From a virus, in the IMG/VR virus record IMGVR_UViG_3300008113_000003, positions 62,001 through 126,000 of that record: a stretch of DNA of 64,000 bases; one strand, 5' to 3'. The notes under the pieces were generated by a model. It ran no database searches. It was not told where the DNA came from and worked only from the letters and a program-made list of their open reading frames with translations. The position numbers were made by a program, and so were the translations under genes. The first letter of the stretch is position 1. Every line of letters begins with the position of its first letter. This document shows, one piece after another, positions 25,745-64,000 of this stretch.

Positions 25745-26124
25745 TAGTCCTTATATGTTATTATTTTAATCGTTTCTGTCGAAAGGTCTGGATCGTATGC
25801 AATGTAATTGTTTTCAGCTCTTTGGTTAACGCCCAAAAAACCATGAGTGAACAGTATATTGTTATCCACAGAGCCTCGTTTAGAGTCCTGTGTATAGACT
25901 TCACTTGTATTATTAACTTCTGTGGAATCATAAAATTTTATTGTTGGTATTGTTTGTCCAGTTAAAACATGGGGATCAACACCGCTCATCTGGTCATAGT
26001 TTGAGTTGTCTATTAACGAAAAATATTTAATTTCATTCCTAAAACCATTGTTTACGAAAGCTTCTCTACCCTTGTCCGTAAGGTATATCTCAAAAGTATA
26101 TTTATTTCTTTTTATAAATCCCAT
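25744..26124 (-). CDS. LTxxGR-family virion protein, 126 aa
   Basis: The N-terminus MGFIKRNKYTFEIYLTDKGREAF matches the LTxxGR modules of the neighbouring 81- and 910-residue proteins. It is followed by a SLIDNSNYDQM segment equivalent to their D/N-rich loop. The C-terminal half is polar and beta-like. It overlaps both neighbours by one base, so the three genes are tightly linked. A small baseplate or fibre adaptor is the likely class. Confidence 0.6.
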   Translation of the reverse strand: MGFIKRNKYTFEIYLTDKGREAFVNNGFRNEIKYFSLIDNSNYDQMSGVDPHVLTGQTIPTIKFYDSTEVNNTSEVYTQDSKRGSVDNNILFTHGFLGVNQRAENNYIAYDPDLSTETIKIITYKD

Positions 26125-28856
26125 TAGAAGTCAATTGTAGCTTGTATTACGACCATATCAGAATTATATTTTCTTGTTATTGGTTCTGAAAATTTACCAA
26201 TAGCCACCATAACACCATCAGTATCAAAAATACCTATTTGTGTAAACGCAACTTTATCTTGGTCAGCATTAAAAGTTGGGTTATCGGTTGATATATATTG
26301 ATTAGGTAGCACGTTACAAGTTAATTGTGTTTTATATATTGTGGCTTTAATATCAGTTTCTATATTACCAAAGAAAAATACCTCATCACCAAAGCTAAAA
26401 TCTGTGGATGAGATACCAGGTATGGTAATATAATCACTTAAATTATAGATATCCGTCTCACTATTGTCAAGCATATATTGATCAATATTTACTCTAAGAG
26501 CTGATATGGTATCTTTTGTTAAAACATTTGTTGATACTGTTTGACCAGCACCAGAATTATCTAAGTAGAACATTGTTATTTCACTACCCTGTGTTGGTGT
26601 GAAATTTAACTCAACACGTCTATCGTCAATTGTTTCATTTGTAACAAAAACACCATATGTTGTTGCATTTAATAACATACCTTTATAGAACAACCAAACT
26701 GTTGAGTTATTTGGTTGTTTATCCAATTTAAGTGATATCCTGTTAGGTGCTATTGTTGATTTATAAATTGCGTTAGCGTTTGTGTTTGAGTTAATTGTTG
26801 CTAATGAAGGTACTGTTATAACTTGTTTAATCGTCTTAGATGTAATACTAGTACCTGTTAAGTAATAAATTTGTAAAAGATCTGGGCTTACACCATAACC
26901 TTGTCCAAAAACAATAACCCTTCTATTATTAGGCCCAACAGCGTATGTTGTTGGATATGCATAATACGTTCCGTCACTCAAAGTATCATCCGATGCTTGT
27001 GTTTGTACAGTACCGTTAAAAATCACAATTATTTCACCAACTGGTGTATTCCCTAATTCAAAAACATCAAAAACGTTAACATCAATAACCGAATGAGATG
27101 CTAATTTATCAACATCGTAATCAAGAATATCAGCGTGTAATTCAAAATTAGTACCGCTTATATTCATAACACCAGTCACACAACCATTTGTACCTAAAAA
27201 CCCACTCACATCAATATAAGCCCAGTTAGTTGGGTCAGGTTTAATACCAGTTGACGACTTTTGCCACAACATTAGTATTTGATTGGTTTTATAACCAATA
27301 CCAGTTTCATCCTCATAATCTTTTAAGAATGAAAATTCGGTGTAGTTTGGATCCTCTATTTTTTTATTAAACTGAAATAAAACATCTTTTGGTGTTGTGG
27401 TTGTGTTTTGTATTGTTGTATAATCCTCACAATGCATACCAGTTATACCAGCACTATCAATAAACATATACGTTACATACAAATACTCACCTGGCTGTAA
27501 AATACCAGTTGTGCTTGTGTTACCACAAACACCTGGTTCTGTTAAATTTAACAGCGGTTTTGGTAATGTCCAGTTTCTGTTTGATTTATAAGATAAAGCT
27601 GATAATAGTTCAGGGTCTTCAATTATAACAATTTTTTCATCAACAAAAACTTTACCAACAACATTTTTATCGTTTTCTTGGTCAACAAGATCATAGTATG
27701 GGTATTTTGTAAGGCCTAAACCAGCCTGTGTTGTCTCATTTAAATATTGTAGCTGAGTATCAGCCACAAACGTGTAACCAACCGTATCAGCAACACCATT
27801 TGTAAATTGTTGTTTATGCCACATTATATGAGGAACTTTAAGTTTAAACGTTGAACGGTAAAAACCTTCACCGTAAAAGTTAGAAACCGTGTTATTTGTA
27901 TAATGTATAACCCCTATTTTTGAATTGGTGTTGTAATAGTTAAAATTTATTGCCGTACCTAAATAATCTTTTGATACAACATCGTACTTAGATTTGTCGA
28001 CTGTTGAGTCTAAACCTATTATGTCCTCAATATTAATAATATTCATATTCCAAACAGGAACATCCAGTTCAGATTGTGTATTATTGTTTGAGAAATCTAG
28101 TAACCCCCCTTGCCAGTAAGCTATTGGGCTTGCCTGATCATAATAATCTTTAATGGTATCTTTACCAGGGTAAATAAACGCATCAACTTCATAAGAATCA
28201 AAGGTTGGTAAATCACGATCAACGATAATTGTGATTGTTGTACCGCTCGTCAAACCAGTTAAATTATATGTGGGTGCACTATTAATAGATTTAATGACGT
28301 ACATCAAATATTGAACGGGTTCAACTGTTATTTGATCAGCTGGTACTTGTGTTGTTGTATAATTTGTTGTATAACCGCTTGTTTTAAATTTAACAAACAG
28401 ATAGTCACCCTCTTTTATGGTTGTGTCATATGAAGAATTTATTGTACCACCATTATAAGTTAAATCAAGAGCTGTGGAACTAGTAGCTGTTGTACCAGTT
28501 AATGGACCAGCTAACCACAAATTTGAATCAATGCTTATTGTTGAGCCAGTTGTATCATAATTAAAAAAACCTCTTTCTATTGCTGATGCGTAAACCTCAT
28601 TTGGTATTGCATTAACGATTGTTATTGGGTTTAGAACGTTAATACCGTCATATGTTAATGGTAAGCTCAAACCTAATACATTATCCGATGGTCTTAAAAT
28701 ATTAACATTTGGAAATGAATCGTTTGAATAATCCATTTCGCCATCCCCAAGACCAAAATATGTGAAATTTAAGGTCCCTTCAGCTAGATTTCTCCTACCG
28801 TTATTGGTTAATTTAACATTAACTAACGGATCGTTTTTCTTAATTATATAGCTCAT
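26124..28856 (-). CDS. Large LTxxGR-family virion protein with fibre/collar C-terminus, 910 aa
   Basis: N-terminal module (about residues 1-45) with VKLTNNGRRNLAEG followed by YFGLGDGEMDYSND. A long beta-rich, Thr/Asn/Gly/Tyr-rich body follows with no enzyme motif. The C-terminal 45 residues (FTQIGIFDTDG, PITRKYNSDMV) are homologous to the end of the 624-residue protein. The D-G-E and Q-I-G-I-F-D patterns are reminiscent of tail-collar/fibre proteins. It probably links baseplate and fibres. An ATATTTAT-type element lies upstream of its ATG. Confidence 0.65.
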   Translation of the reverse strand: MSYIIKKNDPLVNVKLTNNGRRNLAEGTLNFTYFGLGDGEMDYSNDSFPNVNILRPSDNVLGLSLPLTYDGINVLNPITIVNAIPNEVYASAIERGFFNYDTTGSTISIDSNLWLAGPLTGTTATSSTALDLTYNGGTINSSYDTTIKEGDYLFVKFKTSGYTTNYTTTQVPADQITVEPVQYLMYVIKSINSAPTYNLTGLTSGTTITIIVDRDLPTFDSYEVDAFIYPGKDTIKDYYDQASPIAYWQGGLLDFSNNNTQSELDVPVWNMNIINIEDIIGLDSTVDKSKYDVVSKDYLGTAINFNYYNTNSKIGVIHYTNNTVSNFYGEGFYRSTFKLKVPHIMWHKQQFTNGVADTVGYTFVADTQLQYLNETTQAGLGLTKYPYYDLVDQENDKNVVGKVFVDEKIVIIEDPELLSALSYKSNRNWTLPKPLLNLTEPGVCGNTSTTGILQPGEYLYVTYMFIDSAGITGMHCEDYTTIQNTTTTPKDVLFQFNKKIEDPNYTEFSFLKDYEDETGIGYKTNQILMLWQKSSTGIKPDPTNWAYIDVSGFLGTNGCVTGVMNISGTNFELHADILDYDVDKLASHSVIDVNVFDVFELGNTPVGEIIVIFNGTVQTQASDDTLSDGTYYAYPTTYAVGPNNRRVIVFGQGYGVSPDLLQIYYLTGTSITSKTIKQVITVPSLATINSNTNANAIYKSTIAPNRISLKLDKQPNNSTVWLFYKGMLLNATTYGVFVTNETIDDRRVELNFTPTQGSEITMFYLDNSGAGQTVSTNVLTKDTISALRVNIDQYMLDNSETDIYNLSDYITIPGISSTDFSFGDEVFFFGNIETDIKATIYKTQLTCNVLPNQYISTDNPTFNADQDKVAFTQIGIFDTDGVMVAIGKFSEPITRKYNSDMVVIQATIDF

Positions 28857-28892: not shown

Positions 28893-31800
28893 TTATGGTA
28901 GGCTTATGTAATCTCTTGGGTCAACCGTGTCAATTGTTAAATTATTTGCACCGTCAAAGTCAATTTTAACAACTCTACCTTCACTTATATCTTTTAATTT
29001 TATTGTTCTTGTTATTAATCTACCAACATTTGTTTTTGTTGACACAAAATACCCATTTTCAATACCATTATCGTTTGTATCAAATAATGCGTAATTATCC
29101 ATGAAACCTGACTTATATCTACTAAGATTTCTTGTTACATCAGTTTTAACACTAATTGTAATAGATTCTCCGTAATTAACAACAATGTTTTCGTCAAAAT
29201 ATTTATTTTTTGTTAACACCCTATTGTATAAAGTACTATTAGATGTGTTATTTTCAACAATAACAGTGACATTTGAGGCACCGTTTTGGTTGATGATTAA
29301 TCTAACTTCTGGTTTAAATCCAGTTATTAACTCAACATTTTCAGGTAATGGTGGTGCTGTCATTATTCTAGGTTTTAATTGGTCTAATTTTGTCAAATCA
29401 GCTTCAAATAAAACACCAAATATTGTTTTTGCTGTATGCCCACAAGGATTTGTTATGGTTAAACCACCAATAAACTCACCAGTTAACGGTAATCCGTTAT
29501 CATCTCTTTCATAATAATAGTCCATTATTATGTCATTTTCTATTCTTCTAAATCCAGTTAAACCGTATTCTTTAACACTTCTAAGGTTTGTGTTTTTAGC
29601 ATCAAATAGTTTATTAACACCGTTTAATAATTTAGCGTTCGTTGTTGCACCACTAAATGTTTGTTCGGTAAATGATGTTTTTAATTTTAAATTCTTATCA
29701 AAGAAATATAAATTATTTTTTGTGGTTGTATCAAGTGATTCGATTTTACCTTCATAAATTTTAACTTTACACCTATCTTTTTTAAATGTAAATTTATTAA
29801 CTAACATAAAGTCACGTTCTTCCCAGTTAGTTGATAGATGAGGTTCTGTTGTTGTTGAAAATGATCCAACCCCATTAACCGTTCTATATAAAACGTTTCT
29901 ACTAACAGTGTATTTTTTACTGTGATAATTAGAATTACTATTATACGTAGTACCAGTCGCTATAAAACCTAATATACCGTTATCTTCAGTTGTTCTTGCT
30001 AAACGGTGGAACATTGGTTGTATATTAAATGGGCCGTTAATGTACATCCAAAGTACTTGGCCACATAATAATGGCGATAAGAAACTTGGGACTACTTGTG
30101 TAAGCGTATAACTATTTTGTATTAAATTAGTGTCTTGTGTACCACTAAAAGTCATTAAACTGTCCGTAGTACCCGTGTAATTTAATGTTGATCCAGTAAT
30201 CCTAAAATAACTTAAAATGTCAGAATTTTCCGATATTGTATTGGTATCTCCAGGTAATGTTGTGTAGAACATATCTGCAATCAATATATTTGTTGACCCA
30301 GTAAATGGTAAAGAATAAGTATAACCACCTGAGTTAGCAGTTGTTGGTAATAAATTTTTAACCCTATAAGCCGATGGCCCAAGCGAATATAGATTTGGAT
30401 TGGTTGTTACACCAGTAATATCTTTAGTCCAAAATGGGTTATTTGCGTTTGCACCAGTTATTGGCATTTCATACCAGCCAGTACCACCTGTTGGTGATGT
30501 TCCAGCGGTAGTACCCGTTGGGTTATACCAAAAACTATATTTAGAATCAATCGAAAAATTAGATCCTGGGTAATAAACGATTTCACCAGCAAAATAATCA
30601 TTTGTTGGGTCCCAGGTTAACGGTTTATTATAAACATATTCATATAAATCATATATTGCTGTTGAACCAGAACCACTAATATAGACTTTAGCAATATCAC
30701 CTAAATTTAATTTTTGAGTTGGTGATCCGTTTAATAGTATTGGTTCTGAATATCTGTATGGTGCAACATTTGGTTTAACGATTTCATAGTTAGGTAACTT
30801 ATCGTACCCTATTGGTGTAAATCTTTTTAGATCGTAATTTTCAATAGGTATAAAACAAGTTCTGGCACCATTTGGCCTGTATATTGGGTGTATTTCAAAT
30901 GTACTTGATGAACCAGATATTTTACACAAATGATCCGCTGTTATATCCTCAATACAAACATATAATCTATCAACATCAATTGTTTCAACTGTTGTACCAC
31001 TTGTAGTTTCTACAACTTTTCTATAATCATTTAATTTAATTTTAACTATGTCATTTATAACATAGTTATTTACGCTAGAACTAAAATAAGGTACGACTGC
31101 TAAAATATCTTTATATAGTTTTGTACCGTAAACACTATTCTCCTTTTTAAAGTAACCGTATGTTGAACCGCTGATTAGTTTATATCTTTTTTTAGAGATT
31201 AAACTTTCGGATAAATTGGTGTTAAAATCTAATTGGTTGTAGTCGGCAAGACCCTCATCATATCCAATAAAATCAATGGTTGTACCAGTAACTTCAACAT
31301 CATTCTTATACAATTTTAAAAAGGTATAATCTAATTTATTAAGGTTAGCGGTTCTAAGTTTTGGTGTTTTACCGATAAAAATACTTTTTGTTATATTAAC
31401 ATTTTCAATTGTTTGTGGTGTGTTACCTAAATAATTACCTGTAGATGTAATCGTGTACGATTTTTCTAACCCAGGAAATGAGTAGTATATTTGAACACTG
31501 TCGCTATAATACGTAGGAGTATTCGTTAATTCTTTACCTCTAACTGTTAACTCAAAATCAACATAATCGTTATTAAAGTTTTTTTCGTAAATTGAAACAT
31601 CACCGATTTGCGAGGTAGCCTTGTTTTTCTCAAAATATTTACCATACAATAAACCAAAATTATTAACTTCATCATACGACTGATTTATATTTAGTTTATG
31701 TACAAATTGGTACCTGTCAAAACTATTATCTATTTTAGTTAAGTATCTATCAATTGTGTGGTCATCGTTATAACCAATTGGCTCTATTGATAAAGCATCT

Positions 31801-34800
31801 TCAAAATAGTGGTTGTTAATTAAACCCCTACCACCATTAAAGTAAACCCTAAATCTAGGGTCATCTAATGAATCGTAGGTGGTTTCATTAGCGTAATCTA
31901 TATCAATTGTCTCATATCTAGATAGTTTACATGACTTACCTATCGGTTCAATAACCAAATAAACTTTTGTGTCGACAAAAAATACCCCTTCATGTGTAAA
32001 ATTAACCACTCTAAGTAAACTTTCATCAGCGCCACTAAAATTAAATAATTGCTCATATATTATAACCCCAAATTGGTCCATTAATTTAATTAAAACCGAT
32101 TGTTGTGTAGCAAATTCTGATTCAAAAAACAGGTCAATATCAAATTTAAAGTACTTATTTTGTTTTATTAAGAAATAACCATTACTTAAACTAATATTAC
32201 GATTAACAATATTGAAATTTGTATTAAGTGACTCAAAATCAATATAGTTATTTTTGTCTGGAATCAATTCTAAAGATTCGACTAATGTCTGTGTTGCGAT
32301 TGAATTCTCGTCTGGTGTGTAAAAAGGACCAAGTTTGTCTTCATCTAGTGAATAAAACCCGTCAAATGATAAAGTATTAGAATCACTTATATATAATTCA
32401 TCATTTAATAAATTATCAATAACTTTATAGGTTTCCTGATCCGTTGCACCACTATATACTTGATACAAGTATAATGATTTAGTTAAATTAAATGATATTC
32501 TATCCGATAAAGGGTTAATTAAATTCTTTTTAAGATAGGCGGAATTTATATGCATATAAGGATCCGTTGTTGTCCTACCTGTATAATGTTGATACATACC
32601 AGGAACCACTGTTGTGACTGTTGTACCAGTTGGTGTTGTTGTTGTACCAGTAACGGTATCAAACGTAACTTCATAATAAGTTGAGCTATGTTTTACAATA
32701 TCACCTTTATAATAAACCACACCGTTTGTCCAAATATTTTCTTTCTGGTATGGTATAATCCAATTAGATGCCGCACCGTACAAAGCATTATTTGGTTTTG
32801 TTGTTGCGGTATTTTTTGAATAACCGTAATATTTGGCTTGTTCAATTGTTAAATATTTACCAGATTCATCATAATAATCGGTAATACCAGCTGTAGACAT
32901 TGATATTGTATCTCCAGTAAATTTAAAATAGCATGTATGTGGTTTTGGTATTGGGCATAAGAAGTCTACGTCAGCTGCTAAATGTGCATGCCCAAAAGAT
33001 ATTGCCTCAATGTAATAATTTCTTTCATCAATTGATGTCGCATCCAATGGAACGCCATCCAATTTTAGATCTATAATTTTATTTGTTGATCCAAAATAAC
33101 CGCTGTTATAGAATGTTAAATAACCAGTTGTTGATGTAATTGAGCTAGAGTGGTTAACAATACCCGACCCACCACCTTCACTCACTAAAGTTGTTCCAGC
33201 TGTTGTTTTACCGTCATGTATCGTTAAATCATCCCCAGTATTTGTTGTAAAAGTTATTTGGTATGTACCAGGACCTTCTGGTAATTTAACAACATGAGTG
33301 TTACCCACAATAGGGTCTGGTGTTAATAATATGGTATTTGAATCTTTAAATGTTAATGTTTTTGCATCAGCATCAAAAGGTATGTACTCATATACCATCT
33401 CACCATTAACCGTTAATGAATCAGGGGTATGCTTCTGCATTAAAACCAAATCAGTTATTTCAACATCATTCGGAAAATTCCTCATATTCCAAATTGTAAA
33501 ATAATTTGTTGTAAACGTTAAATCTTTTGAGTATGTTCTCGTTGTACCGCTAAGACCACTAATACCATCTAATTGTGTACCACTTATATAACCATCATAG
33601 ATAAGTAAATCATCTAAACCTTCTAATGTGAATGTCACCTTATATGTACCAGGGCCATTTGGTAATGTTATCGTATCCGTATCATAACCAGCGTCTAATA
33701 AAACATAACTCTTTCTAAACTCTGGATAGGTATTAATCTGAATTGGATTAATGAATAGAGTGTTGGTATTTAATCTATATAATTTATTGTCATATGTGAT
33801 AAAAGTACCATTTTTTTGCGTTTCAGTAAGTGGTATAACAAATAAATCGGATATGTAACAATCAGAACCGTAGTTAAGATCATTATAAAACGATAGTGAG
33901 CTTGTACCAGCTGTTACTACTGAACTATAAGTAAGCGTAGAACCTGAGGTGTATGGTAAATTAGCCAATAACGGGCTACCGTTATTTGGACCATTATAAA
34001 CAACAAGATCATCGTTGCTCGTGTATTTAAATGTAAGTAAATAATCACCTGATCCAGGTAATGTAATTTGTTTACTAATTGGGTAATAATTAGGCCCCAC
34101 GGTGTTATCACCTATACCAAATGATGGTACGTTACCTTTATTTACATTTCCGTAATATAACAAATCGTTACCAAAATCTAAGCCATCTTCCCATTTATAT
34201 ATTTGTACATCTGAATTACAAGCATCTTCTATACCATAGTAAAAACCGAAATATTCATTAATAGTCGGATCGTATCCAATGTAGTTTTTACCTTTAAAAC
34301 CTTCAAATGTAAATGTTGAGGATTCCCCAACAATTGGTAATTTATTGGTACCAATTGGATTAAATGGGTTTGTTAAACCTTGGTTAACAGGTCTTTTTGC
34401 TAATTCCTGAAATTCAGAACCATCTGTACCTAACCAACTAACGCTATTGTTTAAACCATGTTTATAGATAAATTTATTATCCATAAACTTAGAGTTCTGT
34501 ATTTTCTTACCCGCATTTAATATTGTTGTTGCTGGTGTAAATTGTTGAACTAATTTTACCCAAGATGAGTCAAAATAACTTAAGAATTCTAAATCTTTTG
34601 TGTTTGTCATTGGTGACGAAACGGAATTTAGATAGTCGTAATATATTTTTGTTAGCGTTGGGTATGTTTTAATTGTTTTTCTGTTATCTGGCTTGATGTA
34701 ATTATCAAGTGATTTTTGTAAAAACTGGTTAAAAGTTAAATCACCACCATTAATTGTTGGTACAAAAGCGAAGTTTAAATCACTATTAATATCAACAGCA

Positions 34801-36911
34801 TTTCTATTGTAATATCTATAAACAGATAGATCAAATATCTTATCTGAAGCTAAATAAACCTCTAATTCCTTAGAGTTAATAACTAATTTAGAGTGTGGTT
34901 CATAGTATTCAGTATACCCAACAGAGTCTTCTGATAACCTTAAAACCTCTTCAGTGCTATAAACCCAAGATTTTACGTTATCGGTATATCTATCAACCGT
35001 AAACATACTCACACCACCTCTTTTTTCAAAAGCTTGTATGTACTGTTTACCGAAATCATATGGTCCGAAATTTTTACCGTCATTTGTTGTTGTAAACCCA
35101 CTTTCTTGGTACCTAACATCATGCGGTACTGTTGGATAACCATCTTTATCAAAAGGTAATAATGTTAGTAACGTTTCATCTGAATAAGCCCCACGGTATA
35201 TTTCAAAGGATTTGTCTGTGAAGTTAACTGGGTTTCTCGCAATGTATACCTTTTCATCTATTTCAAAAATAGAATCTGGTAAACCAACTAAATTTAAAAT
35301 AAACTCAATTGATTTTCTGGTTCCCTTTGATTTCCACAGATAATAAGCGTTTATAAAGATTCTTCTCCATAGCTCAATGTCAATTTCAGCTGGAGTTAAC
35401 CCAGGTTCAACATTAAGATCCTTAATGTTGAATAGGGATTCGATGATAGTGTTCTCATCCTCAACATTATAGGTCTCAAAACCCAACATGTTACCAAAAT
35501 TTTTAACCAACAAATCTGGAATGTTCTCAATTTTGTCATAAGTTAAATTTGTCATGAAGGTTATACCATCAATGTATTTTCTTATGTTATCGAAATTCCT
35601 ACCAATGAGACTAAACATTAGATTTATTTTTCTATCATCGGTGTCAAACTCCTTTAAAGAATCTGTTGTTAAAAATCTGGTAATCAGATTTGTTTTTGTT
35701 GCATCAAAATCATCCGATATCTGATTTAATTTTGTCAAATAAGCATCAAAATCTGTTGTAAAAATATCGATGTTAGTTTCATCTAATTGTGGGAATACCA
35801 GGTGTTCTTCTGTGTTTAATCTTGCACCAGAATCTGTTACTTTTGTATACCTAATAACCGATGAATAAACTTTTAGATCATAGTTATAATCCATCAAAAA
35901 TTTACCCATGTCGGATAAACTATTTTGGAATTCATCGAATTTTTCTAACGAAGGTTTTAACCAGAATGTTGTGTTAACCGTTTGGTTATTATTAACCACA
36001 CTACCAAATGGGTTACCCTGTACAACCAAATATATACCATTATCGGTATCAGTTTGTGAACTAGGTAATGTTACATTTAATATTTTATATTCTGTGTCAT
36101 TAAAATAAACAACAAAGTCGCTATAGCGTTTAGAAAAGTTCCTAACTGGATTTATATTTTCTTCGTCAGTAATAGTTGTACCAGTTGCTGTAAATTCAAC
36201 GCCAAAAGGGTTATCAATGTTATTTAAGTTTATCTTAAATTCAGAGGTATCTTTGTTACTGTTGTAACTATAATCTGTTACTGTTGGTGATAACAAACCC
36301 AAAACATTTAATTTGATTGATGCTGGGTATTTTTGTGATATCTCAACAATAGTATTTTTAACCGTTTCTTTTAGTGGTGAATATAAAACATAATTTTCAA
36401 GTTTTTTCTTATCAAAAAGAATGGTTACTGTTAAATTGTTTTCAATCTTAGCGTTAATAGATTCAACTAAATTAGTTGATGACTGTGTATTCCTGTTTGG
36501 GTTTAGGTTATTAATCGATTGAGCTGTGTATGATCTTGTTTCAGGACTAATATTTGCGGTTTTACCCTCAACTGGTCTTTGTGAAACACTTGTATTAATC
36601 GAAAAATTACCTAAAGTAAAGAATGGGTCACCAGAAATCTCATTATTATTGTTTGCAAATTGCAAACCAACCGCTTTATCACCAATGTTACCCCTTCCAG
36701 ATATAGCATTTGGGACACCTTGTCTTTTTACAAATCTTAGTGCCTGTTCATAGGCCAAATACGTTGCACAGGGCACATATTTATTTTGCCCATTAATATT
36801 ATATGTTCTGTATCCATTACAGCCTAGACTAGCCGAAGCTGCAAGAGCCGCTTCTGGTGTATCGTATAAATCAGCTATTAACGGTGTGTTTGAGTAACTA
36901 AGATTAGCCAT
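28893..36911 (-). CDS. Giant baseplate/tail protein, 2672 aa, with tail-protein-I-like and CUB-like domains
   Basis: The largest complete gene here. Around residues 440-560 a region typical of tail protein I (gpI/wedge-type) occurs, with WRRIFINAYYLWKSKGT and RKSIEFILNLVGL. Three related modules follow at about 945-1030, 1085-1165 and 1205-1290. Each starts with a LP-(x)-GPGTY or GSGDY strand and contains a DD-L-x-(I/V)-x-(D/N)G motif and a Ser/Thr-rich strand; together they look like CUB-type beta sandwiches. The rest is Tyr/Asn/Thr-rich beta structure. It may combine a wedge component with receptor- or sugar-binding modules. The domain names are inferences from pattern. Confidence 0.65.
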   Translation of the reverse strand: MANLSYSNTPLIADLYDTPEAALAASASLGCNGYRTYNINGQNKYVPCATYLAYEQALRFVKRQGVPNAISGRGNIGDKAVGLQFANNNNEISGDPFFTLGNFSINTSVSQRPVEGKTANISPETRSYTAQSINNLNPNRNTQSSTNLVESINAKIENNLTVTILFDKKKLENYVLYSPLKETVKNTIVEISQKYPASIKLNVLGLLSPTVTDYSYNSNKDTSEFKINLNNIDNPFGVEFTATGTTITDEENINPVRNFSKRYSDFVVYFNDTEYKILNVTLPSSQTDTDNGIYLVVQGNPFGSVVNNNQTVNTTFWLKPSLEKFDEFQNSLSDMGKFLMDYNYDLKVYSSVIRYTKVTDSGARLNTEEHLVFPQLDETNIDIFTTDFDAYLTKLNQISDDFDATKTNLITRFLTTDSLKEFDTDDRKINLMFSLIGRNFDNIRKYIDGITFMTNLTYDKIENIPDLLVKNFGNMLGFETYNVEDENTIIESLFNIKDLNVEPGLTPAEIDIELWRRIFINAYYLWKSKGTRKSIEFILNLVGLPDSIFEIDEKVYIARNPVNFTDKSFEIYRGAYSDETLLTLLPFDKDGYPTVPHDVRYQESGFTTTNDGKNFGPYDFGKQYIQAFEKRGGVSMFTVDRYTDNVKSWVYSTEEVLRLSEDSVGYTEYYEPHSKLVINSKELEVYLASDKIFDLSVYRYYNRNAVDINSDLNFAFVPTINGGDLTFNQFLQKSLDNYIKPDNRKTIKTYPTLTKIYYDYLNSVSSPMTNTKDLEFLSYFDSSWVKLVQQFTPATTILNAGKKIQNSKFMDNKFIYKHGLNNSVSWLGTDGSEFQELAKRPVNQGLTNPFNPIGTNKLPIVGESSTFTFEGFKGKNYIGYDPTINEYFGFYYGIEDACNSDVQIYKWEDGLDFGNDLLYYGNVNKGNVPSFGIGDNTVGPNYYPISKQITLPGSGDYLLTFKYTSNDDLVVYNGPNNGSPLLANLPYTSGSTLTYSSVVTAGTSSLSFYNDLNYGSDCYISDLFVIPLTETQKNGTFITYDNKLYRLNTNTLFINPIQINTYPEFRKSYVLLDAGYDTDTITLPNGPGTYKVTFTLEGLDDLLIYDGYISGTQLDGISGLSGTTRTYSKDLTFTTNYFTIWNMRNFPNDVEITDLVLMQKHTPDSLTVNGEMVYEYIPFDADAKTLTFKDSNTILLTPDPIVGNTHVVKLPEGPGTYQITFTTNTGDDLTIHDGKTTAGTTLVSEGGGSGIVNHSSSITSTTGYLTFYNSGYFGSTNKIIDLKLDGVPLDATSIDERNYYIEAISFGHAHLAADVDFLCPIPKPHTCYFKFTGDTISMSTAGITDYYDESGKYLTIEQAKYYGYSKNTATTKPNNALYGAASNWIIPYQKENIWTNGVVYYKGDIVKHSSTYYEVTFDTVTGTTTTPTGTTVTTVVPGMYQHYTGRTTTDPYMHINSAYLKKNLINPLSDRISFNLTKSLYLYQVYSGATDQETYKVIDNLLNDELYISDSNTLSFDGFYSLDEDKLGPFYTPDENSIATQTLVESLELIPDKNNYIDFESLNTNFNIVNRNISLSNGYFLIKQNKYFKFDIDLFFESEFATQQSVLIKLMDQFGVIIYEQLFNFSGADESLLRVVNFTHEGVFFVDTKVYLVIEPIGKSCKLSRYETIDIDYANETTYDSLDDPRFRVYFNGGRGLINNHYFEDALSIEPIGYNDDHTIDRYLTKIDNSFDRYQFVHKLNINQSYDEVNNFGLLYGKYFEKNKATSQIGDVSIYEKNFNNDYVDFELTVRGKELTNTPTYYSDSVQIYYSFPGLEKSYTITSTGNYLGNTPQTIENVNITKSIFIGKTPKLRTANLNKLDYTFLKLYKNDVEVTGTTIDFIGYDEGLADYNQLDFNTNLSESLISKKRYKLISGSTYGYFKKENSVYGTKLYKDILAVVPYFSSSVNNYVINDIVKIKLNDYRKVVETTSGTTVETIDVDRLYVCIEDITADHLCKISGSSSTFEIHPIYRPNGARTCFIPIENYDLKRFTPIGYDKLPNYEIVKPNVAPYRYSEPILLNGSPTQKLNLGDIAKVYISGSGSTAIYDLYEYVYNKPLTWDPTNDYFAGEIVYYPGSNFSIDSKYSFWYNPTGTTAGTSPTGGTGWYEMPITGANANNPFWTKDITGVTTNPNLYSLGPSAYRVKNLLPTTANSGGYTYSLPFTGSTNILIADMFYTTLPGDTNTISENSDILSYFRITGSTLNYTGTTDSLMTFSGTQDTNLIQNSYTLTQVVPSFLSPLLCGQVLWMYINGPFNIQPMFHRLARTTEDNGILGFIATGTTYNSNSNYHSKKYTVSRNVLYRTVNGVGSFSTTTEPHLSTNWEERDFMLVNKFTFKKDRCKVKIYEGKIESLDTTTKNNLYFFDKNLKLKTSFTEQTFSGATTNAKLLNGVNKLFDAKNTNLRSVKEYGLTGFRRIENDIIMDYYYERDDNGLPLTGEFIGGLTITNPCGHTAKTIFGVLFEADLTKLDQLKPRIMTAPPLPENVELITGFKPEVRLIINQNGASNVTVIVENNTSNSTLYNRVLTKNKYFDENIVVNYGESITISVKTDVTRNLSRYKSGFMDNYALFDTNDNGIENGYFVSTKTNVGRLITRTIKLKDISEGRVVKIDFDGANNLTIDTVDPRDYISLP

Positions 36912-44625: not shown

Positions 44626-46440
44626 TTAATTAATTCCTGTTGCAATAACTGGTATAACTTTTATATCAGTATCACCATTTCTAATGTTTAGCATTTGATA
44701 TTCATCAACAATTATGTAATTGCCTGTTATATCTATTTCACCAGTTGCGGAATCAATTAATGATTGGCTTGTTGTGTTTGTTGAATAACCAACTCCAGTT
44801 TTATTAAATGCTTTAATATAATTAACGTTTAAAACACCATCAACTTGCGTAATCTTTTTGATCATCTCACCAACACTGTAACTCTTACCTAATTGTTTTT
44901 TCTCATCCAAAAATTCGTTTTCAACAATTGTGGTTATATTTGATACCGCTGATATTTGTTGACCGTTTTCAACCAAAACACCAATTTCAAAACCTAAATC
45001 AATGATTTCAGCTGGTTTAACAACCACATAATCGTTTATCATTCTAAACTTGGATAAATAAGCGGCTATGTTTTCCATCAATAAAGATGTCACCGTGTTT
45101 GATATATCACCATTAGCGTCATAAGACAAGACACCTATTTCAATTTTATTTTGTTTTTGTGTTATACTGGTTTTTGCTGGGGTACCAAATTTACTTGGCA
45201 TACTTAATAGTAGGACTTTGTAGTCATTTAACGTTACAGCCCTATTTTGTGCAGCAAAATTATAACCAATATAGTTCCTTAACTCCTCAACCGTTGGTTC
45301 GTCAGAACCCCCGACAGCTGGTGTTGTATTTGTAACCGTTATTGATGATTGTACGGTTGAATTAATTGCTGTATCTGGGCCGTTTATAGTCGATGTTAAT
45401 CTGTTAATAGTTGTTATTGTACCAGGGCCAGTATTTGTTCCAACACCGCCACCAATTCTATATCTAACAAATATTGTTGTGTTAGCTATTGGTGCCATAC
45501 CAAGGCTACCATTTCTTAAAAAACTTTTAAGGTCAAAAGTACCCCCATCTAGGAAATCGTCTAGAATATCAAAAGATGAATCCGTTTGGGCACCAAAGGT
45601 TATTGTACAAAAACCTTTTGGGGTAAACTCGGTAATGTATCTTTTATCTATTTTTTGGTAAATACCTTTTGCGATACCACTTACTCTAGGTGAATTTATG
45701 TCTTCAACAAAAACACTATCTTCAGCTAATGAAGGTACTTCATACCACTTATTTGGACTACTGATAAATTCGCTATCGGTTGGTGTCGCTGTAAAAGTCG
45801 TACCAGCTTTATGGATTACAGACTCAACAGATAAAACGTTGTTTTCTGGTAAAGTTATTTTGTAGAAAGGTATTGAGTTTACAAACGTTTGGTTATAAAC
45901 TTTTGTCGTACCAGCTATAACAATACCAGTTTTTGTAATTGAGTAAGCTGTTATCTTGTTGTTAACAAAAATAGGTCTCTTTGTTCTATCAACGTTACCA
46001 GAACTATTTGTGGCTAAATTAAAATCAACATCATACACCAATTCATATGTATTTTCGCCATTTGAAACTTGTGTACCAGCTTTAATAACTGGTAAGTATC
46101 TTATATCCTCTTGATCTCCGTAAACAGGTACTTGAGCTGTAAACTCAACAACCGCAACAGCTGAAGATTTTGTGGGTAATTTAAGACCATATGTCTTAGC
46201 AATATTATATAACGATTGTCGTTCTTGTGCGTAATCTAAAACAGTTTCTTGCAACGCCCTATCGATTTGATAGTTTAAGTTATCAGCAATAGCCGCATTT
46301 AAATCTAAGAATACTGATAGTATTGACGCATCGTTAAAGCTTTGTACAACCTCTGGGTAATACTGTTTGATATAGTTTATTTGCTCCGTTTTTAAAGAAG
46401 CAAAATCTCTTTTACTATAATTTATTTGTCTGTTTGCCAT
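44626..46440 (-). CDS. 6: Baseplate wedge subunit gp6-like (baseplate J-like)
   Basis: 604 residues. The N-terminus NYSKRDFASLKTEQINYIKQYYPEVV, then FNDASILSVFLDLNAAIADNLNYQIDRALQE is the characteristic gp6/J-like helical segment. The C-terminal half contains the conserved TVEELRNYIGYNFAAQNRAVTLNDY stretch (about 385-410) and an ends-with-beta domain. It forms the wedge scaffold of contractile-tail baseplates with gp25 and gp7-type proteins. It starts one base before the gp25 stop, and is cotranscribed with it. No SD-like site is present. Confidence 0.85.
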   Translation of the reverse strand: MANRQINYSKRDFASLKTEQINYIKQYYPEVVQSFNDASILSVFLDLNAAIADNLNYQIDRALQETVLDYAQERQSLYNIAKTYGLKLPTKSSAVAVVEFTAQVPVYGDQEDIRYLPVIKAGTQVSNGENTYELVYDVDFNLATNSSGNVDRTKRPIFVNNKITAYSITKTGIVIAGTTKVYNQTFVNSIPFYKITLPENNVLSVESVIHKAGTTFTATPTDSEFISSPNKWYEVPSLAEDSVFVEDINSPRVSGIAKGIYQKIDKRYITEFTPKGFCTITFGAQTDSSFDILDDFLDGGTFDLKSFLRNGSLGMAPIANTTIFVRYRIGGGVGTNTGPGTITTINRLTSTINGPDTAINSTVQSSITVTNTTPAVGGSDEPTVEELRNYIGYNFAAQNRAVTLNDYKVLLLSMPSKFGTPAKTSITQKQNKIEIGVLSYDANGDISNTVTSLLMENIAAYLSKFRMINDYVVVKPAEIIDLGFEIGVLVENGQQISAVSNITTIVENEFLDEKKQLGKSYSVGEMIKKITQVDGVLNVNYIKAFNKTGVGYSTNTTSQSLIDSATGEIDITGNYIIVDEYQMLNIRNGDTDIKVIPVIATGIN

Positions 46441-46441
46441 T

Positions 46442-46858
46442 TTATACTGTTATTGATAATTTATCGCTCGTTGAGAATGTTTTGGAGCTTATTGTGTAAT
46501 CTAAGTTTATTCTGATTTGGTGTTCCTTTTCGGTATCATTTAAAAATTCAGGCTCATTCCCAACATTTGTAATGTTAATTGCATTTAATTTTAAATTTGG
46601 TATGTATTTTTCAACCGCATCCTGAATCTCATTTTCTATTTTACCTAATGTTGTTTCATCAAGCGGTTCAAAGATATATTGATACAAGTTAGTCCCAAAG
46701 TCTGGTAAGTAATACCTAGATCCCTTTCTTGTTAAAAGAAGGTGTATTAACATTGATTTCACCTCAGCTTCTGGTATTGTCGTTAAACCAACATAATCAC
46801 CGCTACTTGATTCCGTAAAAGGGAAATCAATACCAAATGTTTGTTTTTTAATTGCCAT
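46442..46858 (-). CDS. 25: Baseplate wedge subunit gp25 (GPW/gp25 family)
   Basis: 138 residues. The family core is visible: a conserved LLTRKGSRYYLPDFGTNLYQYIFEPLDE (about 40-67) followed by a helix (IENEIQDAVEKYIP) and strands to the end. gp25 nucleates sheath assembly onto the baseplate with gp6. This is the first gene of the structural block, lying 95 bases downstream of nrdA, behind a terminator and a GATATTTAT element. Confidence 0.9.
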   Translation of the reverse strand: MAIKKQTFGIDFPFTESSSGDYVGLTTIPEAEVKSMLIHLLLTRKGSRYYLPDFGTNLYQYIFEPLDETTLGKIENEIQDAVEKYIPNLKLNAINITNVGNEPEFLNDTEKEHQIRINLDYTISSKTFSTSDKLSITV

Positions 46859-56819: not shown

Positions 56820-59800
56820 TTACCATTTTAAATTGTCACTGGAAGTGTTCATTCGTTTAAAATAATCAACAGCGAATGTGCTTCTACCCGCTGGTAAAAT
56901 ACCCCTGTCTTTTATATGGTATTTATCCCAACCAACATTACAACCGTAACAAACTTCAACCTTCCACGCAAAAATGTATGCGGCAACATAAGCCTGTAAC
57001 TCATCACTTGATAAACCAGTTACATTACTACCAGCAACAGATAAATCATACTTTATTGTTGGTATTTCGGTTTTAAGCTGTGCACGGAAATTATCAGTAT
57101 TTCTTTTCCAACCACCTTCAAGTAAATAATTTAATTGGGCTGTTACTGTAGATCCGACTGTATCAAAAGTTTTATTATTCCACTGTATTAATCCAACGTT
57201 GTTTTTACCGTTAATAACATCAGCCCCACTTTCAATAAGTGGGTTAAATGTACCACCAGTTTCTTTATGTATGTTACCTAAAGCAGCGGCTACCTCAATT
57301 TTACTCCAACCCCTATCTTTTAAATAATTTTTAATTTCAACTTTATTCGCCTCTGTTTCAGCGCTACCAATTGTTTTCTTATCTGGTGAACTACCACCAA
57401 ACACCAAATATGGTTTTGGATCTATTGCTGTTAACCCAAAATAACTACTATAATCGGTCGCAATACCAGTACGTACCTCAAAATGTAAATGCGGACCAGT
57501 ACCAATACCTTCTTTACCGCTTTTTGCTATGACATCCCCAGCTTTTACGTTTGCACCTTGTGTTGTTTTTGGTTCAGAAATATGACCGTATAGTGTTGAT
57601 ATGTTATGCTCCCTATGTGCGATTATGACTAATTTACCAAAACCGCTTGATTCTTTATCCCCAGCAAACACAACATTACCATTTAGAACTGAGTAAACTG
57701 TTGTTCCAACCGCAGCATCTAAGTCAATACCCTGGTGAAATTCAGATGCCCCTGTTGCTGGTGCTGTTCTATTACCAAAACCAGAGGTAGGTACTATTTT
57801 CGCCAAAGGATCAACCCAACTACTTATTTTTCGTTTAGTACCATCAACAAATCTTTTAGCTGGTGGTACGTAAATTTGATCTGAAGTAATATCTTTATCT
57901 AAAACCGTCCAATCTTGTGGCGCTTCTTTTGTACCTCTTACCGAAGAATTAATATAACTTTTAATGGTTCTATCTTTAGCTTCTGTACTTTTTAATTGGT
58001 CTTCCGTTGATATCGCAATGAAACTAACATACGATTTACCATCACTAATTGCGCCTAAAACATCTGCTTGATAAGTGGTTTCATCTGTTCCCCTACCAGC
58101 TGGTAAATAAGGGTCACTATATGACGCATTATAAATAAATTCACCAGACAAAGGACTTGTTTGGCCACTTACAGTACCAAATCCAAGTACAACAGGTGGT
58201 TTTTTATCAACATTGGCAAAGAAATTGTTACTATTCAAAATAGGGCTATTACCAGAGGTAACACCAATTACTGACCTATTATACTTTAATCTAGCATCTT
58301 CGTGTATTTTTGGTATAAATGGTGCTTTTCCGTATCTAAGTACAACAAAATATTTTTCACCAACTTTACCATTTGTTATTTTAGATGTATCAAAAGGTAA
58401 TAAAACAATATCATTACCTGCATTATATGCGTTTGTTATCCTAGTTTTATCGTTTTGTGTTAAATTGGTATTTAACCACGCTTTGTAATCAGGTATTACT
58501 TGAATTAACTTATATCTAGAGATACCATTAACAATTTTTGTTGGGTAACCATCAGGTGTTGTGTATGGTGTATAGACATCAACAAAAATTATATCACCAT
58601 TTTCAACGTATAATTTTGGGTTAACGTTTATACTCCATATAGATGACAGACCACCCGAATTTGGTTGAATTTGGACTGTTGAAAATGTTTCTTCTATACT
58701 ACCATTATGGTTACCATCTGGGAACATTGACCCAGTTGTTTTAAACACAATGTTTGTTAGATTGTAAGTTGAAAACCCTTGTAGTTCTTGGAAATTATTT
58801 TTAACCTTACCCGAGACCCAATATGAAGCACCAAGGAAATCATTTTTACTCTGTTCAGAATAATTACTAGGTATTTCAATATCTTTAGGGAACGTTACTT
58901 TTGGTAACGTTGCGTCATCCCCAACAATACCATCGGTTTGACTTGTTATTAAAGTTGTTTTAACACCTTTTAATGGCTGGTCTTGTGCTAAATATGTGGC
59001 TACTTCAGCTAATGGTTTTTGGCTAAATTCAAGTAATATTTGTTCATACTCGTTACCAGAAGTTGGGTATGTTTTGAGTAAATTTGATATGGATCTACCA
59101 ATACCAAGTTTAACAAACATATCATAAACAACAATGTCCGCAAAATATTTAACAGCTTCCGCTGGTTCTTGACTACCAGCAAGTAATGATGCGTTGTTAT
59201 ATAAATAAGCTATTAAAGCTTTTATAAGTAATTTATTATTTTGATCGCCATTTGTCATTAAATTAAGATATGACGCTGCAATCCATTGTCCACTATAGTT
59301 AACATATTTACCACCACTTTCAGCTTGTGAAAATAGGGCGAAACCATTATCAGTGCCACCCGCTACAGATGCTCTATTATTATAAGCATAAACCTGACCA
59401 TCTGTGTCTACTGGAACTCTGTTGTTAGGGTCAACATAACCACTAGCTTCAGCATTTATTTCAGCGGTTCTAAGTAACTGTGCCAATATTGACGTGTTTG
59501 CTGTTGGTTTTTTTGATATTGGTTGTCTAACACCTTTAAAAGTTGTTGTCATGGTGTTTGCTGTTATCTTATGGCTCACATTTGTTATCCAATATGTACC
59601 ATAAAATAAAGGTACGTTTTTAACATAAAAATATGTTAAAGGTTGTATACCAGCATTTCCTAAACTTGTAACTGTACAAGAATAAGATCTGTTTTCCATT
59701 GCCGTAAATAATTTACCACTTGATAATTGAGCAACGTTTTCAGGTGACGCTAAGTTAACCTGGGTAAATATACTCTCTTCTGTGTTAGCAAATTCATCCG

Positions 59801-62800
59801 TTGACAGTTGGATGTTTTGGAACATGTTTTGATTTTTATTACCAAAATCAACAATAAATGAAGAGACATTTGAATTTAAAATATCATTTGGTATACCCTC
59901 ATCTAGTATTATACCTTGATTATCCGTACCCAATTGTGATGTTTCTATGTCCAAACAAAATGTATTACTTAAATCAAATTCAGATAAATTGTTTTTCTTT
60001 TGCTTGTTACCAGCTGATACATTAGATGTCAAAGAACCTAACTGAAATATAAAAGCTGGATTTGAATCGAACATCTCAAGATTATTAAACACGCCAAACA
60101 TATCATGAGCAACCTCAAATGGGTCCTGGCTTTCAGCGATAGCACCATTTAAATTAACATAAGATGTTAATGGTAATAACAAGAATTCGTGATCGCTTGC
60201 TAAGGTTGATAAAACAGACCACATTGATTTTGATCTTAATGTGTTATCAACTTGCGTAACATTTTTTAAGTCATCCGCAATAACTTTTTTAAGCGCATCA
60301 ATATTGGCCAACACTTTACTACCATAAGGGTTATTCCCCCTATCAATAACCATTGCGTAATCATAAAGATCTTTTAATTTACCTTCAGTAACATCTGGTG
60401 TAATTCTTTTGTCCACGCAATTCTCATAATCAGTATCATCGGTTTCAACATTAAAGTTAAAAAATAATGGGTGGTTTAGTATATCATTTACACTAATTTG
60501 AGCTAAATCTTTACTCGTCTTTTTAATTAGTCTTTGGTCGTTTAAATCTATTTCATTAAATGAAACACTTCTATCGTATAAAGTTTTTATCCTATAATAC
60601 GTACCAGTTCTAAGTTCAATTTGTGATTTGGTTAACTCTTCATTATACTCATCAACATTTTTTGAATCCGCTAATTTATCCAAACCATCAATTTTTGTTT
60701 TTGACAATTCAGAGAATTTTTTTAGACCAGTATTAAAAGCTTCTATTTGTTTTGTTAAAATATTTTTGTTGGTATATTCGATAAACTCTTTAAGTTTTTC
60801 AACAGCTTTAATTTCATCAAAAGTGTTATAAAAATATTTTACCTCACCAACCTTTGTTAAAACACCATTTACTATTTTTTCTGTTACAACATATTGATTA
60901 AGGGTCCAATCGTAAATTTTGTTAGTCGCACCCTCAGCTGAAGGAAATATTGTTGCGTTATTAAAACTAGAGTCATAACCAAACATCGTACTATTTATAC
61001 GGTTGCGATATAATAAATCTTGTTGGCTGAATATATCACCTATATAATTTTTTATATACGGCATTAACAGTTTTAAATTACCCTCTGTTATTTCAATGTT
61101 TAGGGTGATAAAAAATACTCTTACTAATTCTGGTAATAAAGTTTTTGACACAGTTGGTTCAACACCACCTATATAATAAAGACCCAAATATTTTGTAATT
61201 AATTCGTTATAATTACCTGGTATTGTTTTAATGTCATAAGGACTAACTGGTTGATCACCAAATAATAGTGTTCTAAATAACAATCTATAATCGACCTTAC
61301 TAATAATACTGTCCGCTGTTCTTGTCTCACTAGCGTACATTATAATCGGATTAAATATATTAGAATTTAACCTAAGACCTTCTGGGTTTTCACCAGTGTT
61401 ATCAACATATAAAGATCCCGTTGTTGTATAGTTGTTAATTGTTATTTTAGAGTTCATAAACTCGTCAATAACAATTTTAGCTTTATTTTCTTGCCCAATT
61501 GTTAGTGCGTAGTTTAATATTTTAGATATATCATTTTTAGAAGCAAACTCAATAAAATAACCAGAGTAACCACATAAAAGAGCTGATATCTCTTCCCTTG
61601 TATAAGCCCTATCCAAAGTTAAAGTTTCTGGTAAATTTGAATAACCAAATATATTAGTGTGTTTAATTAATGATTGAAAATTAAAAGTATCAAAAGCTTG
61701 GGTAAAATAATTCTTTGTATTTGTATCAGCAAAATTTTTAAATAAAGCTCTAAAATCTTCTAATTTATCAAAACCAAAAATATCTACAATGCCATCTAAA
61801 GATTCTGTGTAAGTTTCTTGATATAGACTGGTGTCTGTTTGGTATTTTGAATAATCACGAATACTAAGATCCTCATTTAATGGATCACCCCATTCATATA
61901 ATTGCTTCACATTATCCCCATAACCATATTGTAATGTTTCAAAATAATCAATAACTTTAATATCTTTTAAATGTTGACCCTTTTGTGACCTATAAACGTT
62001 TGTGTTTGGGAAAATACTTCTAGTTTGATCAAACCAAAATAATTTAGATGTATTATAAACAAGACTCTTATTATTAAAATTTAATTCTTTAATTGCGGAT
62101 GGATCGGTTGTGTTCCCAATAATATATAAATCATCATACCTATCAAGATTTGACGTTACCATTGGGTTTGTTATATTTAATGTGGTTAGACCGTCATTGT
62201 AAACAATTTGATTATATTTTGGTAAAAAGAAGTTGTCGTTGTCCGATATTGAGTTTGGTATTGTGCGCTTTTGTGAGTATTTAAGTGCTGATGTTAAAGC
62301 TTTTTGATCTAAAAATTCTGAATAAATTGTATTAATTGAAACATTATTAGGGAGATAATCATAAAAAGTTTTATAATTAAAATTTAAAACACCCAATAAA
62401 TCATTATTTATATCATCGTAGTTAGTAAATGAAGATATCGTTAGACCAGTTACATATGGATCAACTAAATCGTTTGACCCAATAATGGTTGACACATTAT
62501 TTGTTTTATGGTAGGTATAATTTTTATTTGAAAATAATTCTTTAACACCTATCTCACCACCGCAACTTGGGTAAACGACATATGTACCTTGTTTATCCAA
62601 TGATGATAATTTAGAACTTTTTTCTGTGTTAAATTCTTTTGACCATATCGATAATAATAAAAGACCAATTTGTTCATGTTGTTTTTCAGTTGTTGCTGTT
62701 AATATATTTGATAAAAAATCTGTTAATTGCAAAAAAACATTTGTTCCATGAGCAATAACTGGCATGAAGGAATTTGGGTCAACATCATATAATGATAACA

Positions 62801-64000
62801 CCCTAAGAGTTTTATTAGGTCTTCTAGAATCTTTTTCAGCACCATCTGGGTGAAAAAGTAAATGTATTAATAAGGCGGCAAAATCTGATAAAACTACGTT
62901 ACCATTTTTTGCGTTTAAATTATTAACAGTACATAAGTCTTTTATTAATGTAAAAAAATAATCTGTTGTAATATAACCGCCAAGATAATTAGCTTTAATT
63001 TTTGACAGCATTAAAAAAAACTCCGTTTTTTTGGGTGATTTTGAAAATACAAAATTAGTGTCAAACGTAATTGTTTTTGTTAATGTATCTAAAGCAGCTT
63101 TTATCCCATTAAGATCGTGTTGGATTGTGGTTCCATAACTATTGTATGAAGCTAAGAAATTAATTTGTGTATCATTGTATGTTTTAAATGTTTTTAGATT
63201 ACCTTTAAAATTACCGATAATATGGTATGGTATACCGTTATCATTTAAATTAGTACCCTCATCTGTTTGTCCATCAAGACCTTCATTAAAGAAAAAATAT
63301 GACATCGCATTCATATAATTATTTAATACACCGTACCCACTAAAAGGTATGTGTGATGCGATATTATTATTTAAAGATATATAGGTATTAAGATTATAAT
63401 CGTAATATTTTTCTCTATAATTTTTACTTATATTAGTTTTACTGAAAGAATCGCTACCATTACTAACCGAATCATCAATATGTCTTGGTGTGATTGGTTT
63501 AACAAAAGGTGCTGTTGCTAATATAAGATTTTTATCGTCATACACATACGAACCATAATGTTTATTTTTTATGATCGGGTCATCAAATAAATCATAACCG
63601 TTTTTTGCTTTTAAACCATTTATTAAATCAAGATCGATTTTAGTGTCTTTTTCATAATCATTATAGTAATAAAAATCATACATACCACCAATATATAATA
63701 TTGTGTGTATCGGTAGTTCAACTAAACCTTGTGTTGTTTTAAACGCTGTTGATAAAAATTTAAGATCTAATGGCCCACCCACGTTAGATGGGCAAGAAAT
63801 ATGTCTTAAAAACATTTGGCTGCTTTTAAAAAATTTACCTGTATTAATTTCTTTTACGATATTTTGTGCAAAAATAGCGTGGTTATTAGGTGTATTAAAA
63901 CCTAAAGTACTACCATCTGCATCATCTCTTTCTTTTTTAAGTGTATCAAAAGTTCCATCAATAGTTTCCCCTGTAACACTACTCATCATAGCGTTTATAT
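56820..64000 (-). CDS. Giant tail hub protein with C-terminal M23 endopeptidase and tail lysozyme, 5' end open
   Basis: At least 2389 residues from an ATG at 63989, but the frame stays open to the window edge, so the true start may lie outside. The first 1400 residues are unrecognised. Around 1460 a hub-like segment appears (VPLFYGTYWITNVSHKITAN), like VgrG/gp27-type hub barrels. At about 2070-2190 an M23 (LytM) endopeptidase follows, with HQGIDLD and HLHFEV ligands. At about 2205-2389 a phage tail lysozyme follows, with HKETGG (Glu near 2242) and VGLIQWN. It should puncture and cleave peptidoglycan at infection. Numbering is from the ATG at 63989. Confidence 0.8.
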   Translation of the reverse strand, partial: INAMMSSVTGETIDGTFDTLKKERDDADGSTLGFNTPNNHAIFAQNIVKEINTGKFFKSSQMFLRHISCPSNVGGPLDLKFLSTAFKTTQGLVELPIHTILYIGGMYDFYYYNDYEKDTKIDLDLINGLKAKNGYDLFDDPIIKNKHYGSYVYDDKNLILATAPFVKPITPRHIDDSVSNGSDSFSKTNISKNYREKYYDYNLNTYISLNNNIASHIPFSGYGVLNNYMNAMSYFFFNEGLDGQTDEGTNLNDNGIPYHIIGNFKGNLKTFKTYNDTQINFLASYNSYGTTIQHDLNGIKAALDTLTKTITFDTNFVFSKSPKKTEFFLMLSKIKANYLGGYITTDYFFTLIKDLCTVNNLNAKNGNVVLSDFAALLIHLLFHPDGAEKDSRRPNKTLRVLSLYDVDPNSFMPVIAHGTNVFLQLTDFLSNILTATTEKQHEQIGLLLLSIWSKEFNTEKSSKLSSLDKQGTYVVYPSCGGEIGVKELFSNKNYTYHKTNNVSTIIGSNDLVDPYVTGLTISSFTNYDDINNDLLGVLNFNYKTFYDYLPNNVSINTIYSEFLDQKALTSALKYSQKRTIPNSISDNDNFFLPKYNQIVYNDGLTTLNITNPMVTSNLDRYDDLYIIGNTTDPSAIKELNFNNKSLVYNTSKLFWFDQTRSIFPNTNVYRSQKGQHLKDIKVIDYFETLQYGYGDNVKQLYEWGDPLNEDLSIRDYSKYQTDTSLYQETYTESLDGIVDIFGFDKLEDFRALFKNFADTNTKNYFTQAFDTFNFQSLIKHTNIFGYSNLPETLTLDRAYTREEISALLCGYSGYFIEFASKNDISKILNYALTIGQENKAKIVIDEFMNSKITINNYTTTGSLYVDNTGENPEGLRLNSNIFNPIIMYASETRTADSIISKVDYRLLFRTLLFGDQPVSPYDIKTIPGNYNELITKYLGLYYIGGVEPTVSKTLLPELVRVFFITLNIEITEGNLKLLMPYIKNYIGDIFSQQDLLYRNRINSTMFGYDSSFNNATIFPSAEGATNKIYDWTLNQYVVTEKIVNGVLTKVGEVKYFYNTFDEIKAVEKLKEFIEYTNKNILTKQIEAFNTGLKKFSELSKTKIDGLDKLADSKNVDEYNEELTKSQIELRTGTYYRIKTLYDRSVSFNEIDLNDQRLIKKTSKDLAQISVNDILNHPLFFNFNVETDDTDYENCVDKRITPDVTEGKLKDLYDYAMVIDRGNNPYGSKVLANIDALKKVIADDLKNVTQVDNTLRSKSMWSVLSTLASDHEFLLLPLTSYVNLNGAIAESQDPFEVAHDMFGVFNNLEMFDSNPAFIFQLGSLTSNVSAGNKQKKNNLSEFDLSNTFCLDIETSQLGTDNQGIILDEGIPNDILNSNVSSFIVDFGNKNQNMFQNIQLSTDEFANTEESIFTQVNLASPENVAQLSSGKLFTAMENRSYSCTVTSLGNAGIQPLTYFYVKNVPLFYGTYWITNVSHKITANTMTTTFKGVRQPISKKPTANTSILAQLLRTAEINAEASGYVDPNNRVPVDTDGQVYAYNNRASVAGGTDNGFALFSQAESGGKYVNYSGQWIAASYLNLMTNGDQNNKLLIKALIAYLYNNASLLAGSQEPAEAVKYFADIVVYDMFVKLGIGRSISNLLKTYPTSGNEYEQILLEFSQKPLAEVATYLAQDQPLKGVKTTLITSQTDGIVGDDATLPKVTFPKDIEIPSNYSEQSKNDFLGASYWVSGKVKNNFQELQGFSTYNLTNIVFKTTGSMFPDGNHNGSIEETFSTVQIQPNSGGLSSIWSINVNPKLYVENGDIIFVDVYTPYTTPDGYPTKIVNGISRYKLIQVIPDYKAWLNTNLTQNDKTRITNAYNAGNDIVLLPFDTSKITNGKVGEKYFVVLRYGKAPFIPKIHEDARLKYNRSVIGVTSGNSPILNSNNFFANVDKKPPVVLGFGTVSGQTSPLSGEFIYNASYSDPYLPAGRGTDETTYQADVLGAISDGKSYVSFIAISTEDQLKSTEAKDRTIKSYINSSVRGTKEAPQDWTVLDKDITSDQIYVPPAKRFVDGTKRKISSWVDPLAKIVPTSGFGNRTAPATGASEFHQGIDLDAAVGTTVYSVLNGNVVFAGDKESSGFGKLVIIAHREHNISTLYGHISEPKTTQGANVKAGDVIAKSGKEGIGTGPHLHFEVRTGIATDYSSYFGLTAIDPKPYLVFGGSSPDKKTIGSAETEANKVEIKNYLKDRGWSKIEVAAALGNIHKETGGTFNPLIESGADVINGKNNVGLIQWNNKTFDTVGSTVTAQLNYLLEGGWKRNTDNFRAQLKTEIPTIKYDLSVAGSNVTGLSSDELQAYVAAYIFAWKVEVCYGCNVGWDKYHIKDRGILPAGRSTFAVDYFKRMNTSSDNLKW

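Follow-up and report, generated by a model that had tools for sequence, protein, structure and literature searches.

A giant predicted tail-hub protein with two C-terminal wall hydrolases and an exchangeable lysin arm in an uncultured contractile-tailed phage

The 64,000-nucleotide stretch of DNA analysed here (the window; C1:62001-126000 of a 206,296-base virus record) encodes a giant protein that is best read, with a probability of roughly 0.8, as the central hub of a contractile, T4-type tail, carrying a C-terminal virion-associated lysin arm that is an exchangeable module. The domains, motifs, gene context, arm swapping and split genes on which this reading is built were all taken from the sequence. 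The element that appears to be new is a giant contractile-tail hub with an exchanged lysin arm, the fusion of two enzymes being in itself already known.

The true start of the hub-lysin gene lies 61 bases past the end of the window, and the protein is therefore 2413 amino acids long (C1:118820-126061). The original prediction, which gave 2389 amino acids, was thus right to call the protein giant and short on its length, and the size that it regarded as unusual is normal for the lineage, where full-length relatives have about 1600-2550 amino acids. Residues are numbered here on the 2389-residue translation of the window, not on the full ORF, and the features discussed are collected in Table 1.

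Table 1. Features of the hub-lysin gene and of other genes in the window (positions in the window)
Feature	Position	Strand	Residues and remarks
Separate Amidase_2 protein	11054..11680	-	third wall bond, other gene
910-aa protein	26124..28856	-
2672-aa protein	28893..36911	-
gp6-like baseplate wedge protein	44626..46440	-
gp25-like baseplate wedge protein	46442..46858	-	supports a contractile tail
Hub-lysin gene, in-window part	56820..63989	-	2389 aa; 3' part of the ORF
Phage_lysozyme2 (tail lysozyme) region	56823..57377	-	~2205-2389; Glu E2243 in NIHKETGG
Phage_lysozyme2 Pfam match	57069..57347		2215-2307
Peptidase_M23 domain	57468..57740	-	2084-2174
Arm linker	57741..59384	-	~1536-2083; helical at ~1530-1670, then fast-evolving segments
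Hub/arm junction	59355..59399	-	1531-1545 (GQVYAYNNR...); identity falls beyond
Conserved hub core	59505..60542	-	1150-1495; ends in YFYVKNVPLFYGTYWITNVSHKIT..MTTTFKGVR

Two wall hydrolases in one tail protein

A Pfam scan found both of the C-terminal domains at the positions where they had been predicted, an M23 endopeptidase and a Phage_lysozyme2-type domain with a glutamate in HKETGG, and both matches exceed the curated Pfam cut-offs. The Peptidase_M23 match (E 1.8e-25) includes the motifs FHQGID (H2085, D2089), YGH (H2136) and HLH (H2167, H2169), and these five residues are invariant in an alignment of five arms. When an AlphaFold model of residues 1190-2389 was searched with Foldseek, the M23 part fell on solved M23 enzymes (9gy1, 1.9e-9; LytM, 1e-8; lysostaphin). 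Apart from M23, some segments of the lysozyme and a helical stretch of the linker, the models were poor. The domain has the features by which family M23 is recognised, namely HxxxD, HxH and a further histidine on an M23 fold. The Phage_lysozyme2 match (E 1.2e-8) scores 35.7 bits, the cut-off being 28.2, and its conserved glutamate is invariant in an alignment of six lysozymes. The lysozyme had been said to follow M23 directly; the order stands, but the Pfam matches are separated by about 40 residues. In addition, matches to PHROG families 167 and 8537 span the two catalytic domain regions. From these family assignments, M23 is predicted to cut peptide cross-links and the lysozyme the glycan strand, and peptidoglycan hydrolase domains encoded in a tail-cluster gene are the mark of a virion-associated lysin.

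The fusion had also been called unusual, which does not hold in view of two precedents that make a two-enzyme tail protein an already known kind. Gp16 of Brochothrix phage NF5 (PDB 9m7n, titled 'tail-associated lysin', released 2025-12-17) likewise has a single chain with a tail domain (Prophage_tail PF06605, 97-339), Phage_lysozyme2 (617-769) and M23 (807-896), but it places the lysozyme before M23, has 915 rather than 2413 amino acids, carries another tail domain and comes from a phage of a Gram-positive host. Gp13 of phi29 (PDB 3csq) and its B103 relatives are virion proteins that also combine a lysozyme with M23, the M23 domain of gp13 having been described previously (PMC3314691). The phi29 gp13 lysozyme family provides the best named matches to the lysozyme of the hub-lysin, although gp13, whose PDB chain has 334 residues, is a small protein of the tail knob in a phage with a short tail, has the reverse domain order and lacks a hub. 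The tape-measure fusions of phig1e and Liebe were considered as precedents with the same domain order and set aside, only M23 being above the Pfam cut-off.

A separate Amidase_2 protein is encoded elsewhere in the window, and with M23 and the lysozyme it brings to three the wall-bond chemistries encoded in two genes. This protein is likely the lysis endolysin, lysis at the end of infection being more probably its task than that of the hub-lysin.

Gene neighbourhood and the presumed hub core

The hub-lysin gene lies in a contractile-tail baseplate cluster with homologues of sheath (phrog_23, 2.9e-55), tube, gp26 (T4_baseplate), gp53, gp25 and gp6, a gene content which indicates that the phage has a contractile tail. 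The genes running into it encode, in addition to the sheath, tube, gp26-like and gp53-like proteins, two long proteins of 857 and 919 amino acids in the place of the tape measure and proteins of 855 and 979 amino acids; the gp25-like and gp6-like wedge proteins are encoded in another part of the window. Recombinase, helicase and ribonucleotide reductase genes follow it, named by synteny with an annotated phage and, for the recombinase, also by tblastn. Two further proteins beside the baseplate genes, of 2672 and 910 amino acids, have no confident family match and are possibly fibres or adhesins.

Residues 1150-1495 are the best-conserved part of the protein in an alignment of 28 relatives (A6). 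A model of this core built from the 28 relatives has a mean pLDDT of 49, which is low confidence, and its top Foldseek matches in the PDB, at E values of 0.005-0.18 that are not significant alone, are mostly central hubs: VgrG, AlgoCIS (the Algoriphagus injection system), the R2 pyocin hub and T4 gp27, at 0.005-0.15, with the range reaching 0.18 when an Anabaena system, diffocin and Mu gp44 are included. By hhalign, the core and T4 gp27 gave an E value of 0.21, which is not significant, yet the match falls on corresponding last strands. Neither hmmsearch against the PDB nor a PHROG scan returned anything usable for the core. The modelled core thus bears a weak but consistent resemblance to tail hubs such as VgrG, the R2 pyocin hub and T4 gp27, which favours, for the core around residues 1400-1500, the original suggestion of a tail hub. 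The gene order agrees with that suggestion as well, and a hub is the favoured reading of the protein from the consistency of the evidence, not from a strong score.

One alternative is that the protein is not a hub, but a tape-measure-like or internal ejected protein with lysin domains. Many of the phage proteins with an M23 domain are tape measures, and an internal protein of cyanophage A4 also carries M23 (9k2v). However, the place of the tape measure is already filled by the 857- and 919-amino-acid genes, where the related gene order of Flavobacterium phage vB_FspM_immuto has its annotated tape measure, and the core weakly matches hubs, its motif ending like that of gp27. This alternative is accordingly considered very improbable.

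As the hub of a contractile tail, the protein would be comparable to T4 gp27-gp5, where the hub likewise brings a wall-cutting enzyme to the tip of the tube. The T4 arrangement differs in that gp27 and gp5 are separate proteins, with one lysozyme of another family and a needle in addition. We infer that the hub core (~1150-1495) would sit at the tail-tube tip, with the variable linker holding the M23 endopeptidase and the tail lysozyme. On contraction of the sheath, the tube would cross the outer membrane, and the arm would then perforate the wall locally to let the DNA enter, M23 acting on the cross-links and the lysozyme on the glycan; this activity and its timing are likewise deduced. A gp5-like OB or PAAR spike was not found in the virus record, so the tail tip is not fully accounted for, and the Gp5_OB search was silent in control genomes too.

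Exchange and separation of the arm among relatives

Relatives of the hub core were collected by scanning IMG/VR; in successive scans the number of stretches that encode them rose from 12 to 19 and 56, and finally to more than 560, of which 80 were kept. Scanned genome contigs contained no hub relatives, and tblastn searches of named phages with the hub core and with a distant hub (L028) gave no match. In comparisons with L004, L005 and L010, identity per 100 residues is 57-92% up to residue 1500, with about 90% at 1401-1500, and falls to 18-55% at 1601-1900.

The arms that follow the junction are of many kinds. M23 plus lysozyme is present in the window, L004, L007 and L022, whereas a lysozyme followed by an SGNH-like domain, without M23, is present in L005, L006, L009, L012 and L102. 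Other combinations are another lysozyme-like module with an SGNH-like domain (L010), DUF2272 with lysozyme-like and SGNH-like domains (L101), lysozyme with VanY (L098), M23 with Hydrolase_2, which is SleB-like (L023), and M23 with a module without a family (L091). Lysozyme alone is present in L028, GH19 slightly under the Pfam cut-off in L070 and Amidase_2 in L105. The SGNH-like calls rest on sub-threshold Pfam scores together with GDS and GxND motifs read by eye. Many distant hubs (for instance L054, L049, L071 and L129) end in a module of about 240 amino acids with no Pfam or PHROG match, which, judged from its position, may represent a wall-binding or wall-cutting domain that has not been described.

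In a tree of the hub core, the window forms one clade (100/99) with L033, L037, L034 and L036, tree rows that correspond to L004, L022, L006 (whose arm is as in L005) and L010, respectively, and this clade contains three arm types; a larger clade of 13 rows contains about ten. Within the five-row clade the tree does not resolve the forks and hence does not give the direction of each exchange. As hubs that are about 90% identical carry three arm types, arm exchange is recent relative to hub divergence, and the part beyond residue ~1535 is seen from these comparisons to be swapped among relatives. The cutting end thus looks like an exchangeable tool head, since in the relatives a nearly identical protein, presumed to lie at the tail tip, bears different wall-cutting enzymes there.

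All of the contigs are metagenomic, and the fusion or the differences between arms might in principle be artefacts of assembly. Yet L002 and L003 match the window, the diverged L004, L011, L007 and L022 carry M23 plus lysozyme, and the contigs come from several samples; moreover, the other arm is found consistently in L005, L006, L009 and L012, and the arms are in frame and conserved. Assembly artefact was therefore rejected, as independent contigs agree, and is hardly credible as an explanation.

In two relatives the arm is encoded separately. The hub gene of L043 ends in ...GIIYSDRGL and is followed, 11 bases on (L043:8862-8872), by a 900-amino-acid gene with DUF2272 and Hydrolase_2, whereas that of L092 ends in ...GEIYSDRGN and is followed, 36 bases on (L092:6153-6188), by an 832-amino-acid gene with M23 and Hydrolase_2. 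In both, the motif G-x-IYSDRG immediately precedes the break, which corresponds in position to window residue ~1535, and in the hub-core tree L043 and L092 are sister lineages. Either one polypeptide or two can thus make up hub and arm. The two reading frames differ in L043, and a frameshift origin of its split is possible. In L101, the hub is split at its other end, with the N-terminal ~1150 hub residues outside the ORF of the core (L101:4599-9356).

These split genes also bear on whether the arm is part of one long chain in the finished tail. T4 gp5 is cut during maturation, and by analogy the hub-lysin might be cut near residue 1535 during tail maturation, with the lysin remaining non-covalently bound; the separate arm genes of L043 and L092, which start from the junction, suggest that hub and arm can work unjoined. 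No protease site is apparent, however, and the junction stretch is not strongly conserved, so that cleavage is regarded as unlikely, if clearly less so than a tape measure or internal protein, and an uncut hub with a C-terminal lysin arm is preferred.

A broader proposal is that the hub has an exchange point near residue ~1535 where pairs or triples of hydrolases are shuffled, sometimes as a separate self-docking protein, such that the entry enzyme is matched to the host wall as tail fibres are to receptors; this is put forward tentatively, at somewhat less than even odds. Endolysins are mosaics of domains, and the relatives described here would extend the same mosaicism to the entry machinery of contractile tails, with near-identical hubs and different wall-cutting chemistries in a common uncultured lineage. 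They form a natural series in which to examine whether host range depends in part on the entry lysin, and for what reason a single tail tip should require the cutting of two or three kinds of bond. The split-gene relatives can be compared directly with the fused ones to learn whether hub and lysin need to be joined.

Comparison with Flavobacterium phage immuto

The gene order of the hub-lysin region is identical in Flavobacterium phage vB_FspM_immuto, which makes a Flavobacteria-like host a reasonable guess. The equivalent place in this order is occupied by QQO92155.1 (938 amino acids), which, like the hub-lysin, carries a wall peptidase in its C-terminal part, in this case a VanY carboxypeptidase. 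It differs from the hub-lysin in being less than half the size, in having one catalytic domain found, and in showing no detectable sequence similarity: in BLASTP, immuto proteins gave no more than chance matches to the hub and to the 979-amino-acid protein upstream, and hhalign of the hub against immuto was not significant. QQO92155.1 corresponds to L084:16511-19327; annotated 'carboxypeptidase', it probably represents a tail hub that ends in VanY.
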